64,000 nucleotides of DNA from Sulfurovum sp. (GTDB lineage: Bacteria; Campylobacterota; Campylobacteria; Campylobacterales; Sulfurovaceae): the NCBI GenBank assembly GCA_027049035.1, contig JALTVI010000090.1, positions 1 through 64,000 of the forward strand, read 5' to 3'. The notes beneath the pieces were generated by a model, which saw only the letters and a program-made list of their open reading frames with translations, did not search any database and had not been told where the DNA came from. This document shows, piece after piece, positions 12,658 through 16,677 of this stretch. Each line of letters opens with the position of its first letter. The first letter of the stretch is position 1. The position numbers and the translations under genes are program-made.

Positions 12658-12900
12658 TCAGTTTACCGCTTTGACGTTGACGCGGTAGTTCTTGCCACCC
12701 TTGGCCTTGCAGCCGGAGATGACGGTTTTGATCGCATTGATCATTTTGCCCTCTTTTCCGATGAGCTTTCCCATATCTTCACTGTTGGCGAAGATCGTGA
12801 TCTCATCGAATCCCTCATCCATCTCCGTGATCTCGACCGAAATATCGTCGGGATGGTTCACCAGCAGTGTGGCGTAGGCGTAGAGGAAATCTTTGACCAT
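12658..12900 (-). CDS. khpA: KH-domain RNA-binding protein (KhpA/YlqC family)
   Basis: The 80-residue protein is a single KH domain with GKLIGKEGKMINAIKTVI (about residues 45-62), which holds the GxxG RNA-binding loop (GKEG). KhpA proteins bind many RNAs and, in some Gram-positives, help set cell division and elongation. It sits between rpsP and rimM, its usual location, with 5 bases to each neighbour. The symbol follows family and position. Confidence 0.88.
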   Translation of the reverse strand: MVKDFLYAYATLLVNHPDDISVEITEMDEGFDEITIFANSEDMGKLIGKEGKMINAIKTVISGCKAKGGKNYRVNVKAVN

Positions 12901-12905
12901 TTGGC

Positions 12906-13136
12906 TTATTTTTTGCCTGCAAGTCTCTTGACAGTCGGGCTCATCTGTGCACCGACGCCGACCCAGTAGTTGAGTCTCTCTTCATCGATTTTAAGGTCTT
13001 TGTTTTCGCTTACTGGGTTGTAGTAGCCGATAGACTCGATCCAGCCACCGTCTCTTCTCTTTCTGCTGTCTGTTACTACGATTCTGTAAAACGGCTTCTT
13101 CTTTCTACCCATTCTTGTCAGTCTGATTACTGTCAT
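12906..13136 (-). CDS. rpsP: 30S ribosomal protein S16
   Basis: S16 is an early assembly protein of the 30S body. The start at 13136 gives 76 residues beginning [21 protein letters not shown], the typical N-terminus, with AAAAGGAAAAG as ribosome binding site; longer in-frame extensions are the leader. The sequence continues with [15 protein letters not shown] and a C-terminal [12 protein letters not shown]. It is the first gene of the operon here, because ffh is separated from it by the RAYT island. The roughly 120-base leader holds a small hairpin (GCACCG/CGGTGC, about 13173-13191). Confidence 0.95.
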
Positions 13137-13261
13137 ATTCTTTTCCTTTTTGTTATGTGCTTTGTGAAGCGTCGCACCGGAGGATCGGTGCACCATCGCT
13201 TGCAAGTCCTGACAACTGCTTTTTAATGACCCAAAGCACTCATCAAGACTTTTGGAACGCG

Positions 13262-13267
13262 ATTATA
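13262..13267 (-). promoter_or_regulatory. Promoter -10 box of the rpsP operon
   Basis: The minus strand reads GGTATAATCGCGTTCC here. The same 16 bases occur in front of rpsB (57621-57636), with TATAAT followed by a GC-rich discriminator, as in stringently controlled ribosomal promoters. It lies about 125 bases before rpsP, between rpsP and the Sel1-like gene, so the rpsP operon has its own promoter despite the insertion behind ffh. Confidence 0.65.
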
Positions 13268-13289
13268 CCCAAATCAATTTTAAAGGAGT

Positions 13290-13658
13290 CTAAAATGAGG
13301 GAAGATAACTGCAAATATCCTCTTTGCCAAGGTCGCAGGCCCGTTTGAGGTAACGCCTACCCGCCTCTTTGTCTGCAGGAATCTTCTCCCAGTCATCCCC
13401 GTAGTAGAGCACCATCGCCGCAAATAGACAGCCGTCGGCATCCTCAAGCGCGCAGCCGCGTTTGGCATATACAAGCGCCTTTGCAAGACCGCTCTCCACG
13501 CCGGCCTCATAGCGCTGCTTGGTCTCCATCAGGTAGTTGGCCGCCTGGGTACACGCCGCACCGTCACCCTTTTGGCACGCCTCTTTCTCTTCAAGAAAAC
13601 CGCCCTGAAGCGCTGCAGAAAGTAGGATAATTAGGGTCAGGTGATAATGATAATTCAT
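13290..13658 (-). CDS. Secreted Sel1-like (Hcp-type, cysteine-paired) repeat protein
   Basis: The 122-residue product starts with a signal-like segment (LTLIILLSAALQG) and then has two or three Sel1-like helical repeats whose cysteines are spaced as in the Helicobacter cysteine-rich proteins: EACQKGDGAAC, GCALEDADGC, ACDLGKEDIC. Such proteins are exported and disulfide-bonded; function here is unknown. The start ATG overlaps the stop of the RAYT gene (ATGA) and its ribosome binding site (GAGGAG) lies inside the RAYT 3' end. Codons 2-8 coincide with a copy of the RAYT-associated 22-bp repeat, so the present N-terminus was shaped by the insertion. Confidence 0.65.
   Translation of the reverse strand: MNYHYHLTLIILLSAALQGGFLEEKEACQKGDGAACTQAANYLMETKQRYEAGVESGLAKALVYAKRGCALEDADGCLFAAMVLYYGDDWEKIPADKEAGRRYLKRACDLGKEDICSYLPSF
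13633..13654 (+). repeat. RAYT-associated 22-bp repeat, copy 1 (diverged)
   Basis: Starts AGGGTCAGGTGATAATGATA. It differs at about three positions from the copies at 14767 and 14956, and forms an inverted pair with the copy at 14467-14488, so that the pair brackets the RAYT gene. Confidence 0.8.
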
Positions 13659-14425
13659 TTTTTACTCCTCTTTATTACCCCATGCACGGCAGGTTGCGAT
13701 ATGCCCAGTACTTTAGCAATCATATGCTGTGAATAGCCTTGCTCATATGCTTTGACGATTGTATCATTACGCTCTTTCAGGTCTTTGTGATCGGTTAGCA
13801 TTTTTGTGAGTTTTTCAATATCCTGTTTTTTGTCAATAGTGGATGCCTCTACCAAAGAAGAGGCGTTTTTAAGCTCTTGCAGCTCGGAAGTATCTACATT
13901 GCCGTTAAGCATTGCCCGTATCGCTTCGCAGTCGTTTTGATGCTTTTGTGCTATCCATGCGTTCTGTAGGCATTCGGGTATAGTTTCATAATCCAAAAAA
14001 TAGTGGTAAGAGCTGTAGGGGTACTCTTTGATATCTTGTACCATATTGGCTTTAAGCGGATTTTGTTCTATGTATCGCATGAGGGTATAGAGATACGCTT
14101 CATTAGTGATATACCAAGATTTGAACCTGCCTTGCCAAAGGTGTCCTGTTCTGTTGTATTTTTTATTGAAGTAGATGGCGTAGTTCATATTGAGTTGTCG
14201 CATAAATTTGGAGAGATTGGGTTGTGTGATCTCTATGAGAAGATGATAGTGGTTGCTCATCAGGCAGTAGTTGTGAAGTGTTATGTCGTAACTCTTCATA
14301 TAAGAACACATCAATTCTTCAAAATATTCATAATCGCACGCCTCTTTAAAGACAACCCTTTGCTCTACCCCTCTGTTGACGATATGATAATATCCTGGTA
14401 TCTCTATGCGTGGTTTCCTTGGCAT
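13655..14425 (-). CDS. REP-associated tyrosine transposase (RAYT, TnpA_REP family)
   Basis: RAYTs are single-copy relatives of IS200/IS605 transposases that act on REP-type palindromes. The 256-residue protein has IPGYYHIVNRGVEQR at the start, the HUH metal site as NHYHLLI (His59 and His61), FNKKYNRTGHLWQGRF, and YIEQNP with the likely catalytic tyrosine (Tyr117 in MRYIEQNP). A C-terminal helix-turn-helix (GYSQHMIAKVLGISQPAVHGVI) is added, as in some RAYT subgroups. All catalytic residues look intact. A promoter TATAAT (14445-14450) and AAGGAG precede the start. The gene is bracketed by an inverted pair of 22-bp repeats and is AT-richer than the translation genes around it. Confidence 0.88.
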   Translation of the reverse strand: MPRKPRIEIPGYYHIVNRGVEQRVVFKEACDYEYFEELMCSYMKSYDITLHNYCLMSNHYHLLIEITQPNLSKFMRQLNMNYAIYFNKKYNRTGHLWQGRFKSWYITNEAYLYTLMRYIEQNPLKANMVQDIKEYPYSSYHYFLDYETIPECLQNAWIAQKHQNDCEAIRAMLNGNVDTSELQELKNASSLVEASTIDKKQDIEKLTKMLTDHKDLKERNDTIVKAYEQGYSQHMIAKVLGISQPAVHGVIKRSKK

Positions 14426-14444
14426 GATCGCTCCTTGATGGAGT

Positions 14445-14450
14445 ATTATA
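14445..14450 (-). promoter_or_regulatory. Promoter -10 box of the RAYT gene
   Basis: TATAAT on the minus strand, 20 bases before the start codon, followed by AAGGAG at 14434-14439. Confidence 0.5.
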
Positions 14451-14466
14451 GTAGAAACTCCATTAA

Positions 14467-14488
14467 GTTATTATTATCACCTGACCCC
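14467..14488 (-). repeat. RAYT-associated 22-bp repeat, copy 2
   Basis: Reads GTTATTATTATCACCTGACC(CC) on the plus strand, the reverse complement of copies 3 and 4. It bounds the RAYT unit on the right and a second, 322-bp unit on the left. Confidence 0.9.
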
Positions 14489-14710
14489 TATAGCCCCTAT
14501 AGCGGATATTCTCAAAGGTTAGATACTGCAATAGGGAAAGTTAAAGATGAATATCTTTATAGTTATAACATTGATAGAAATAATTTTTTGGAAATCAACT
14601 TTGAAGATTTAGAAAAAGTAAATCCTATTCATGCTTTAGATGTTTTTGAACATAGAAAGAAAATGACGGCTACTGGTATATTTAAACCGATTGAGCCTTT
14701 TGGTAAGTAA
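14489..14710 (+). pseudogene. C-terminal fragment of an unknown gene within the repeat island
   Basis: An open frame of about 74 codons runs from the end of repeat copy 2 to a stop at 14708-14710, without a convincing start codon or ribosome binding site. It contains RLDTAIGKVKDEYLYSYNI and ends KKMTATGIFKPIEPFGK. It is AT-rich and reads like real protein, so it may be the stranded C-terminus of a gene carried in or cut by the repeat. No family is recognised. Confidence 0.35.
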
Positions 14711-14766
14711 AATAAGTTTTTAACAAAAAAGAGGCGGAAGAGTCAGAGTCAGGAATGGGGGAATAA

Positions 14767-14788
14767 GGGGTCAGGTGATAATAATAAC
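14767..14788 (+). repeat. RAYT-associated 22-bp repeat, copy 3
   Basis: Identical over 22 bases to copy 4 and to the reverse complement of copy 2 (starts GGGGTCAGGTGATAATAATA). With copy 2 it brackets the unknown gene fragment. Confidence 0.9.
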
Positions 14789-14813
14789 TAAGAAGAAAAT
14801 GCATATTTCGAGA

Positions 14814-14941
14814 TATCTTGCTCAAATCTAAAGGTGACGGTGCATAGCCGTCTGACACAAAGTTTGGGAGAAATTACAGAGTGACGATCAAGTGTTGGTG
14901 AGTACACTCAAACCAAAAGTGCTTTTAGCGCGGCATACCGG
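14814..14941. repeat. Diverged duplicate of the ffh 3' end and terminator region
   Basis: About 127 bases are nearly 90 percent identical to 15084-15212, which covers the last codons of ffh and its downstream hairpin. The hairpin here is degraded (GACGG/CCGTC with mismatches). The duplicate is separated from the original by copy 4 of the 22-bp repeat. Confidence 0.85.
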
Positions 14942-14955
14942 ACTTTAGGACTTTA

Positions 14956-14977
14956 GGGGTCAGGTGATAATAATAAC
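14956..14977 (+). repeat. RAYT-associated 22-bp repeat, copy 4
   Basis: Exact match to copy 3, in direct orientation, placed between the two copies of the ffh 3' region. Confidence 0.9.
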
Positions 14978-15103
14978 AGCTAAAAAAGCAAATACCTATT
15001 TCACTATAACAATGCATGAAACGAATCTATTAAAGGTAAAAATGTGATGGAATCCGCCATGAAGTGCTTTGAAAAAAACAGGCATCTTGCTCAAATCAAA
15101 GCT

Positions 15104-15121
15104 GACGGCTGCGTAGCCGTC
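15104..15121 (-). terminator. Hairpin downstream of ffh, probable terminator
   Basis: GACGGCT (15104-15110) and AGCCGTC (15115-15121) form a perfect 7-bp stem with loop GCGT. On the minus strand it is followed by a weak T-rich stretch. It lies 73 bases past the ffh stop. Confidence 0.5.
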
Positions 15122-15194
15122 TGACACAAAGTTTGGGGAGAAATTGCACAGTGACGATCAAATGTTGGTTAGGACACTCAAACCAAAAGTGCTT

Positions 15195-16553
15195 TTAGCG
15201 CGGCATGCCGGGGAAGCCTCCCCCGCCCTGCATCTGCTTCATCATATCCTGCATCTGCTTCATTCCGCCCTTGCCTGAGAGCTTCTTTGCTATCTTCGCG
15301 GCATTCTTGAACTGCTTTAGCACACGGTTGACCTGCACCTGGTCAAGCCCCGCACCCGCAGCGATACGGCGCTTTCTGGTGTTGTTGAGCAGATCGGGGT
15401 TTTCGCGCTCTTTGGGTGTCATGGAGGCAACCATCGCCTTTATCGTTCGCACCTCTTCGGAGTTCTCCATATCCAGGTCGCCGATCTGCTTGGCCATATT
15501 GCCCATCCCCGGGATCATCCCAAGCAGCGACTTCATGCTTCCAAGCTTCTTCATCTGCTCCATCTGCTCGAGGAAGTCATTGAAGTTGAACTGTCCCTTC
15601 TTGATCTTCTGCGTCATACGCTTGGCCTCTTTGGGGTCGATGGCAGCAGCCGCTTTTTCTGCAAGCGACTCGACATCTCCCGCACCCATCAGACGGCTGA
15701 CGATACGGTCGGAGATGAACTGCTCGAGGTCCGGCATCTTTTCACCCGCACCGATAAAGCGCAGCGGTACACCCACCTGCTGTGTCAGACCGAGCGCCAC
15801 ACCCCCTTTGGAGTCACCGTCGAACTTGGTAAGAATCACACCGGTAATGCCGATCTTCTCTTTGAAAGTCTGTGCCGTTCTGACCGCATCCTGGCCCGTC
15901 ATCGCATCGGCGACATAGAAGAGTTCGTCCGGCTGTGCCACCTCTTTGACACGCGCAAGCTCATCCATCAGCTCATCGTCGATCGCAAGGCGTCCGGCGG
16001 TATCGATGAGTACGACATCATACAGCTCTTTTTCCGCTTTCTCAAGACCGCGCTTGACAATCTCTTCTGGCTTGGCATTCTCGTCCGCTACCAGGTCCAC
16101 CTCGATCTGCGACGTGATCTGGCGCAGCTGCTCTACGGCAGCCAGACGCTGCAGGTCGGCTGCGACAACAAGCACCTTTTTCTTCTTCTGTTCTTTGAGG
16201 AAGTAGGCAAGCTTTCCTGTCGTAGTTGTCTTACCCGATCCCTGCAGACCGATCATCAGCACCACGGTCGGCGGCTTGGAGGCGAATGTAAAGCCCTTTG
16301 GTGCACCCTCGATGGTCAGAATGTCAGTCAGCTTGTTCTGCAGTGCGCGTAGGAAGTTGTCCTTGCCCACACCGTTCTTCTTGGTCTCAAGCTCCACGGA
16401 GCTGATGAGATCCTTGACCACCTTGTGGTGGACATCGGCTTTGAGCAGTGATTTCTTCAGCTCGGCTGTTGCTTTTTTGAGCGCCTTCTCGTCATCGTGA
16501 AAACGGATCTTGCCTATGGCATTTTTAAAACTGTCTGTGAGTGTATCGAACAT
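15195..16553 (-). CDS. ffh: Signal recognition particle protein Ffh
   Basis: Ffh binds signal peptides and SRP RNA and hands ribosomes to FtsY. The 452-residue protein has the N domain (about 1-85), the G domain with GLQGSGKTTTTGKL (G1), DTAGR (G3) and TKFDGDSKGG (G4), and a methionine-rich M domain after about residue 295 that ends MKQMQDMMKQMQGGGGF. In most relatives rpsP follows directly; here about 2 kb of RAYT island intervenes. The last codons are included in the duplicated segment at 14814-14941. Confidence 0.97.
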   Translation of the reverse strand: MFDTLTDSFKNAIGKIRFHDDEKALKKATAELKKSLLKADVHHKVVKDLISSVELETKKNGVGKDNFLRALQNKLTDILTIEGAPKGFTFASKPPTVVLMIGLQGSGKTTTTGKLAYFLKEQKKKKVLVVAADLQRLAAVEQLRQITSQIEVDLVADENAKPEEIVKRGLEKAEKELYDVVLIDTAGRLAIDDELMDELARVKEVAQPDELFYVADAMTGQDAVRTAQTFKEKIGITGVILTKFDGDSKGGVALGLTQQVGVPLRFIGAGEKMPDLEQFISDRIVSRLMGAGDVESLAEKAAAAIDPKEAKRMTQKIKKGQFNFNDFLEQMEQMKKLGSMKSLLGMIPGMGNMAKQIGDLDMENSEEVRTIKAMVASMTPKERENPDLLNNTRKRRIAAGAGLDQVQVNRVLKQFKNAAKIAKKLSGKGGMKQMQDMMKQMQGGGGFPGMPR

Positions 16554-16587
16554 CTTCTACCCTGTAAAATGAATTGTAAATCGACCA

Positions 16588-16677
16588 GAGAGGGGGTGCC
16601 TGATGCGACAAAGGTGCACCCAACCCGAAGGGCGGCTCCGCCGTTTGCACCTGCCGGAGTATCAGGTGGCCCCTCTC
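16588..16677. ncRNA. Long rod-like structured element upstream of ffh, possible RNA
   Basis: Nested pairings run through 90 bases: GAGAGGGG (16588-16595) with CCCCTCTC (16670-16677); CCTGAT (16599-16604) with ATCAGG (16661-16666); AGGTGCA (16612-16618) with TGCACCT (16646-16652); and an inner GGCG/CGCC hairpin (16631-16642). The result is one long hairpin with internal loops, located 35 bases upstream of ffh. The shape recalls a small SRP RNA, but the universally conserved GGAA tetraloop region is not intact on either strand, so I leave it as an unassigned structured element that could be a free RNA or an ffh leader. Confidence 0.4.

Follow-up and report, generated by a model that had tools for sequence, protein, structure and literature searches.

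A predicted recognition helix tracks the terminal-repeat triplets among relatives of a TIRYT-like transposase between ffh and rpsP of Sulfurovum sp.

TIRYT genes and TIRtrons, with their GGGGWSAS ends, were named by Di Nocera 2013 (PMC3733652), and Quentin 2018 (PMC6006769) placed most TIRYTs in TnpAY1 subclass 2.1, with HTH-like C-termini and no REPs. In the sections of the latter paper drawn on here, the HTH is said perhaps to lie outside target recognition or to have evolved a new target, and recognition is left open. According to the portions of PMC8266576 that concern them, RAYTs use the catalytic domain and tail to recognise a folded hairpin and a GTAG foot, and IS608 and ISDra2 pick their sites through guide tetranucleotides. 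On the features compared, the element described below fits the TIRYT/TIRtron group, TnpAY1 subclass 2.1. It shares with that group, as characterized in the sections used of PMC3733652 and PMC6006769, a Y1 gene between GGGGWSAS inverted repeats, an HTH-type C-terminus, the NHYH and Y---NP motifs, the lack of a REP, and a prevalence in epsilonproteobacteria. Relative to those sections, the match between helix and end triplet, the hexamer layout, the junction stutters and the shared flanks are additions.

The window analyzed here is a stretch of 64,000 nt from a Sulfurovum sp. assembly (GCA_027049035.1, contig JALTVI010000090.1). An earlier reading, made from the sequence alone, had described in it an intact Y1 gene bracketed by inverted 22-bp repeats and followed by two further copies of the repeat, and all of these were found (Table 1). 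Copies of the 18-mer core lie at 13634 (+), 14470 (-), 14768 (+) and 14957 (+). With up to 3 mismatches allowed, these 4 matches compare with 0.07 expected in the window, and 4 were reached in 0 of 100 shuffles; gene and repeat belong together, as had been supposed. On the minus strand, ffh and a spacer are followed by repeat 4 and by a diverged copy of the ffh 3′ end with spacer. Repeat 3 and an orphan fragment come next, then the transposase between its left and right repeats, and finally a small gene and rpsP. The island had been said to split ffh from rpsP; these two genes do flank it, but the small gene separates the element from rpsP. The orphan fragment (14489-14710, +) looks coding-like, and a 68-aa piece of it matched only itself in 78 genomes, with no match in the 77 others of the genus. 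An Rfam search of positions 12800-16600 gave no match.

Table 1. Coordinates of the features at the locus (positions in the window)
Feature	Position	Strand	Remarks
Small SLR-like gene; N-terminus (MNYHYHLT...) now encoded by the right repeat	13290..13658	-	Sel1 18.3 bits, under Pfam's cut-off
Right terminal inverted repeat	13633..13654	+	Triplets TAA/TAA; overlaps transposase stop and first codons of small gene
Y1/HUH transposase (TIRYT-like), 256 aa, C-terminal HTH	13655..14425	-	Intact ORF; profile and structure matches
Predicted recognition helix SQPAVHGVIKRS, codons 243-254	13664..13699	-	Residues 243-246 track terminal-repeat triplet
Putative catalytic Tyr118 codon	14072..14074	-	Same residue in all 67 alignment rows
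Left terminal inverted repeat	14467..14488	-	Triplets TAA/TAA
Junction stutter CTATAGGGG-CTATAGGGGTCAGG	14485..14503	-	
Repeat copy 3, end of a further unit	14767..14788	+	
Diverged second copy of ffh 3′ end and spacer	14811..14941	+	Families D1, D4, D8; native copy 15081-15211
Junction stutter GGACTTTA-GGACTTTA before GGGG	14940..14955	+	
Repeat copy 4, behind ffh's downstream spacer	14956..14977	+	
ffh, upstream flank of island	15195..16553	-	

The 256-aa transposase scored 67.8 bits with the Pfam profile Y1_Tnp. It carries the Y1 core motifs NH[YF]H and Y[IV]..NP of TnpAY1 subclass 2.1 as N58 H59 Y60 H61 and Y118 I119 .. N122 P123, almost all columns of which are invariant; H59, H61 and Y118 do not vary across 67 aligned sequences, which places the catalytic tyrosine at residue 118 rather than at 117 as first numbered. 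In the AlphaFold2 model (pLDDT 85.3) the C-terminal helices span residues 216-228, 233-240 and 244-254, the last being the third helix of an HTH. This is the C-terminal extension of the subclass, although HTH_23 (E 0.0016) stays under Pfam's cut-off. The ends agree with GGGGWSAS on the left, GGGGTCAG, and on the right, AGGGTCAG, where 1 base is off. The nearest solved fold is that of E. coli TnpA-REP (4er8, E 3.7e-7). The element shares with TnpA-REP/RAYT systems (groups 2 and 3) this HUH fold and inverted pairs of short repeats as non-autonomous units; unlike in those systems, the lone repeat is unstructured and its variable part tracks a separate HTH. With IS200/IS605 TnpA (IS608, ISDra2) the family shares the catalytic fold and the lack of target duplication, whereas a single end holds no hairpin and the ends are inverted repeats instead. 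An IS200/IS605 identity was rejected on the transpos_IS200 score (25.1 bits against a cut-off of 55) and on the ends, where no subterminal hairpin was found.

The ends consist of a constant outer GGGGTCAGGT, to which the class of the window adds two in-frame hexamers. In elements with an [SATN]Q helix motif one hexamer occupies end positions 12-17, its variable triplet being 13-15, and the other positions 18-23, its variable triplet being 19-21. From 167 candidates, 73 with an intact protein and a repeat pair were retained, and 40 of these were SQ-type. Among the 40, triplet distance correlated with helix distance (Mantel r 0.774, 999 permutations, p 0.001; partial 0.779), and it did not follow the HUH domain (-0.02), the linker (0.02) or the rest of the HTH (0.01). 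When triplets were predicted leave-one-out, 35.5 of 40 were correct from the helix, against 25.2 from the rest of the HTH, 17.5 from the HUH domain and 16.5 from the linker, and columns 245, 242, 243 and 246 ranked highest among all 256 in mutual information with the triplet. Pairs with the same residues 243-246 shared the right triplet in 137 of 138 cases, pairs with different residues in 28 of 642. Moreover, the first triplets on the left and on the right agree in 37/40 elements (random pairing 0.20), with the transposase gene between them. At the level of sequence, then, residues 243-246 track the end triplet and the catalytic domain does not.

At least 18 triplet changes map onto a tree of residues 1-209, and in the supported sisters L028/L032 and L034/L132 helix and triplet differ together; supported branches offer few independent pairs (5/5, 5/5 and 3/3; sign test p 0.06-0.25). 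When all 73 elements were taken, the signal of the helix given the remaining protein was weak (partial Mantel 0.225), so we confine the claim to the 40 SQ-type elements. The other 33 lack the tandem-hexamer layout (0.46 against 0.438 in shuffles), and it was likewise dropped as a rule for the whole family. The pairs that we propose are SQPA-TAA, SQQA-CAA, QPT-TAG, NQAT-TGC and QST-ACG/TCG. Helices of the form Q[SA]A make a weak class, in which the right repeat of L141 and the second triplet of L030 depart from the rule.

The helix rule was written down before further loci were fetched. These yielded 15 new elements with a covered helix, 10 of them with a recognisable repeat, and all 10 matched the rule at both triplets, at every end found. 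Seven of the 10 belong to the TAA class; TAG, TGC and CAA are represented by one case each, ACG and AAA by none. Four held-out elements (L168, L169, L175, L176) have no recognisable repeat, and in L167 the left repeat matches only in part (TAA/TAT) and the right one bears a deletion. L166 and L174 apparently lie on the contigs of L083 and L074, whose ends in question were unused when the rule was written. Two elements missed by the pattern of the script, L207 and L209, agree with the rule post hoc. A full-text search, with many subscription papers outside its reach, turned up no account of stutters or of an HTH-to-end code for enzymes of this kind, and the helix-to-end match in the relatives appears to be the new part.

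We consider it highly probable that the locus holds a TIRYT element whose HTH reads the end hexamers and so sets the usable ends, and whose HUH domain nicks near GGGGTCA through Tyr118. The mobile unit would be the Y1/HUH gene together with the terminal inverted repeats on either side of it, each made up of GGGGTCAGGT and two hexamers. The covariation and the repetition of the hexamer suggest that the C-terminal HTH reads the hexamers, perhaps one per protomer. Both ends would need a triplet matching residues 243-246, so that new helix types would spread with new ends. Judging by the family, Tyr118 would then nick near GGGGTCA once the ends are paired with each other or folded within one strand; the substrate would presumably be single-stranded DNA. 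Short end pairs that lack the gene would be non-autonomous copies and, more speculatively, re-joining of a single end to nearby flank would give rise to stutters. A wider proposal stands at about even odds: that residues 243-246 specify, as a natural code, the triplet of both end hexamers, that helix switches produce new, mutually blind families, that single ends are re-joined to nearby flank (the 13-14-nt stutters), and that moves take along 5-6 nt of donor flank. A code-like match is testable, for swapping single residues should direct the enzyme to different ends. If true, an HUH enzyme would be steered by a separate, changeable HTH, and this would explain how mobile ends can diversify into families around an unchanged catalytic part.

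The junctions were analyzed in a set of 97 elements, of which 57 were kept (repeat pair with at least 13/20 matches) and 53 used (identity at least 40%). A tandem near-repeat (8/10 letters, 5-25 nt away) was present just outside 42 of 105 ends, and at 2-7 of 102-106 control anchors at least 40 nt away. Stutters at the end itself numbered 28/105, against a shuffle mean of 2.3 and a maximum of 7. Gene-less copies also stutter (28/75 versus 5/74); these 75 non-gene sites include 3 chance hits in ffh, which stayed in the stutter counts and were removed from the shared-flank set. The hits are P-loop codons that look like the repeat (GGGTCAGGTAAGACAACGAC; L071 at 541, L227 and L245) and were taken as chance. 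In a typical stutter the unit is GGGGTCA with 6-7 nt of flank. A serious rival here, only somewhat short of even odds, is that the stutters come not from the transposase but from slippage of a polymerase where the two-repeat hairpin begins: paired repeats form a strong hairpin, and stutters end at varying points in the first bases of the repeat. Against it, the spacings favour 14 nt (7/28) and 13 nt (4/28), and in many arrays the units stop at GGGGTCA or close to it, a pattern suggestive of a preferred break. The longer duplication of the ffh 3′ end, which also stops at a repeat, may result from the same process as the stutters on a larger scale.

Pairs of ends with the same interior and different surroundings shared at least 5 nt outside GGGG in 41% of 39 cases, compared with 2% of 45,677 unrelated pairs; counted per position, the excess weakens at -6, and at -7 none is left. 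The 39 were left from 40 after one duplicate was taken out; the 16-nt run of L141 was kept and may be a local duplication, and several same-genome pairs are only 75-330 bp apart. Either the element carries a few bases of donor flank or it chooses matching targets. The xth locus was looked at as an empty site that bears on these two readings, and the 5′ part of xth occurs twice in the genome. In Tn916-like elements, coupling sequences are a few bases of donor flank carried by the copies, and the enzyme is a tyrosine recombinase; if the flank is carried here rather than target-matched, the likeness lies in those bases and the enzyme class differs. Target-site duplications of k>=5 were found in 0/53 elements, none above chance, as expected of Y1 enzymes: elements of the IS200/IS605 family, like other Y1 elements, make none.

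Binding of the HTH to the repeats could serve chiefly to repress the transposase's own promoter instead of building a transposition complex. The left repeat lies ~42 nt upstream of the transposase start codon, and a TATAAT-like box was seen by eye between them. We regard autoregulation as the main role as unlikely, since the right repeat, where there is no transposase promoter, has the same triplet, and gene-less copies do likewise; the two roles may also both hold.

The surroundings of ffh were read in the genus: ffh was matched in 66 of 78 genomes, and 30 loci were used, one of them that of the window. In 25 of the 29 relatives rpsP lay within the stretch read, with no transposase match there. 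In three of these 25 (G125, G063, G099) the small gene separates ffh from rpsP and starts at or next to the ffh stop; the small gene thus predates the insertion of the element. As for the other four, G112 has the transposase beyond the downstream region of ffh, and G085, G110 and G124 were unreadable as far as rpsP. Orthologous, intact transposases (94-95%) are present in the close relatives G112, G103 and G110 on the same small-gene/rpsP side; L047, L048 and L071 apparently correspond to genomes G103, G110 and G112 and were counted once. Judged by eye, the small gene has ATC or ATA in place of its native ATG in the window, L046 and G110, and its frame there opens inside the repeat; G112 and G103 retain the native ATG, and the frame opening in the repeat runs into a stop. 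The start codon of the small gene looks as if it had been captured by the element end, and the element and further units would have come in between ffh and this gene. In 21/73 elements (19/40 SQ-type) the stop codon overlaps an ATG that opens an outward frame through the repeat; with this count, a conserved outward ATGA start was dropped as a rule for right ends. The outward frames at the right ends of relatives usually have a Shine-Dalgarno-like motif.

A domesticated transposase, kept at ffh-rpsP for a host function and immobile, would agree with the intact orthologues on the same side, with the low copy number and with the lost native ATG. It seems improbable, because the family is mobile, with two identically scoring copies 3 kb apart in G063 and relatives in unrelated contexts, and because inheritance at the species level alone explains the synteny.

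More doubtful still is the proposal of the sequence-only reading that the locus is a RAYT master locus feeding dispersal of a new REP class. The genome-wide count that it called for gave 12 matches to the 18-mer core with up to 3 mismatches in 2.49 Mb (control 1): 4 in the window, 5 of the same type on contig C47, 2 on C64, and 1 of another type on C47. The sole Y1 transposase gene in the genome at E<=0.001 is that of the window, and four of the 7 same-type copies elsewhere form two inverted pairs, 117 bp long, on C47 and C64, which share one interior and fold much better than shuffled sequences. The suggested REPIN-like units survive to this extent: copies paired ~117 bp apart form one long hairpin (z -6.6 and -6.3 versus shuffles), whereas a lone repeat folds at 0 kcal/mol, that is, it has no structure of its own. 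The repeat has no GTAG foot, in agreement with the first description, and a REP or REPtron identity was rejected for want of a GT[AG]G-footed palindrome, on the NCBIfam REP_Tyr_transpos (NF047646) score of 74 bits against a cut-off of 80, and on the 12 genome matches. The ends agree with the consensus of the TIR-associated transposases as published (PMC3733652, PMC6006769, in the sections used). Among 175 family genomes the TAA type was found in 48, ACG in 20 and TGC in 23, with at most 11 copies of the window's type in any one and no match to a reversed-pattern control. The repeat is dispersed and real, but scarce.

The part of master locus is also cast into doubt by the copies. Near-identical interiors of the 117-bp unit occur in G125 (L306) and G112 (L302). 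A further pair on C47 (L014 2225-2391), ~160 bp long, holds a decayed 3′-end piece of a transposase, which is about equally far from the window gene (77%) and from the copies of G063 (77-79%). This pair sits within the 5′ portion of a copy of xth, a gene that C43 has at full length; 165 bp at 97% identity occur in both places. The dispersed repeat pairs of this genome (L014, L015) lie in or beside rhs (YD-repeat) genes. Positions 170404-170425 of C47, also in an rhs region, hold a fossil TGC-class end, in a genome that has no gene of that helix class.

Returning to the HTH as reader of the ends, it is very improbable that helix and right repeat match merely as neighbours swapped in one cassette, without recognition: the helix codons do adjoin the right repeat (about 30-60 nt) and helix types often switch, but the left repeat across the gene matches too (37/40), residues 210-240, slightly further off, do not track the triplet, and distant pairs with the same helix differ at 0.52 of synonymous helix codons, as they do in the catalytic region (0.51), which argues against a recently exchanged cassette.
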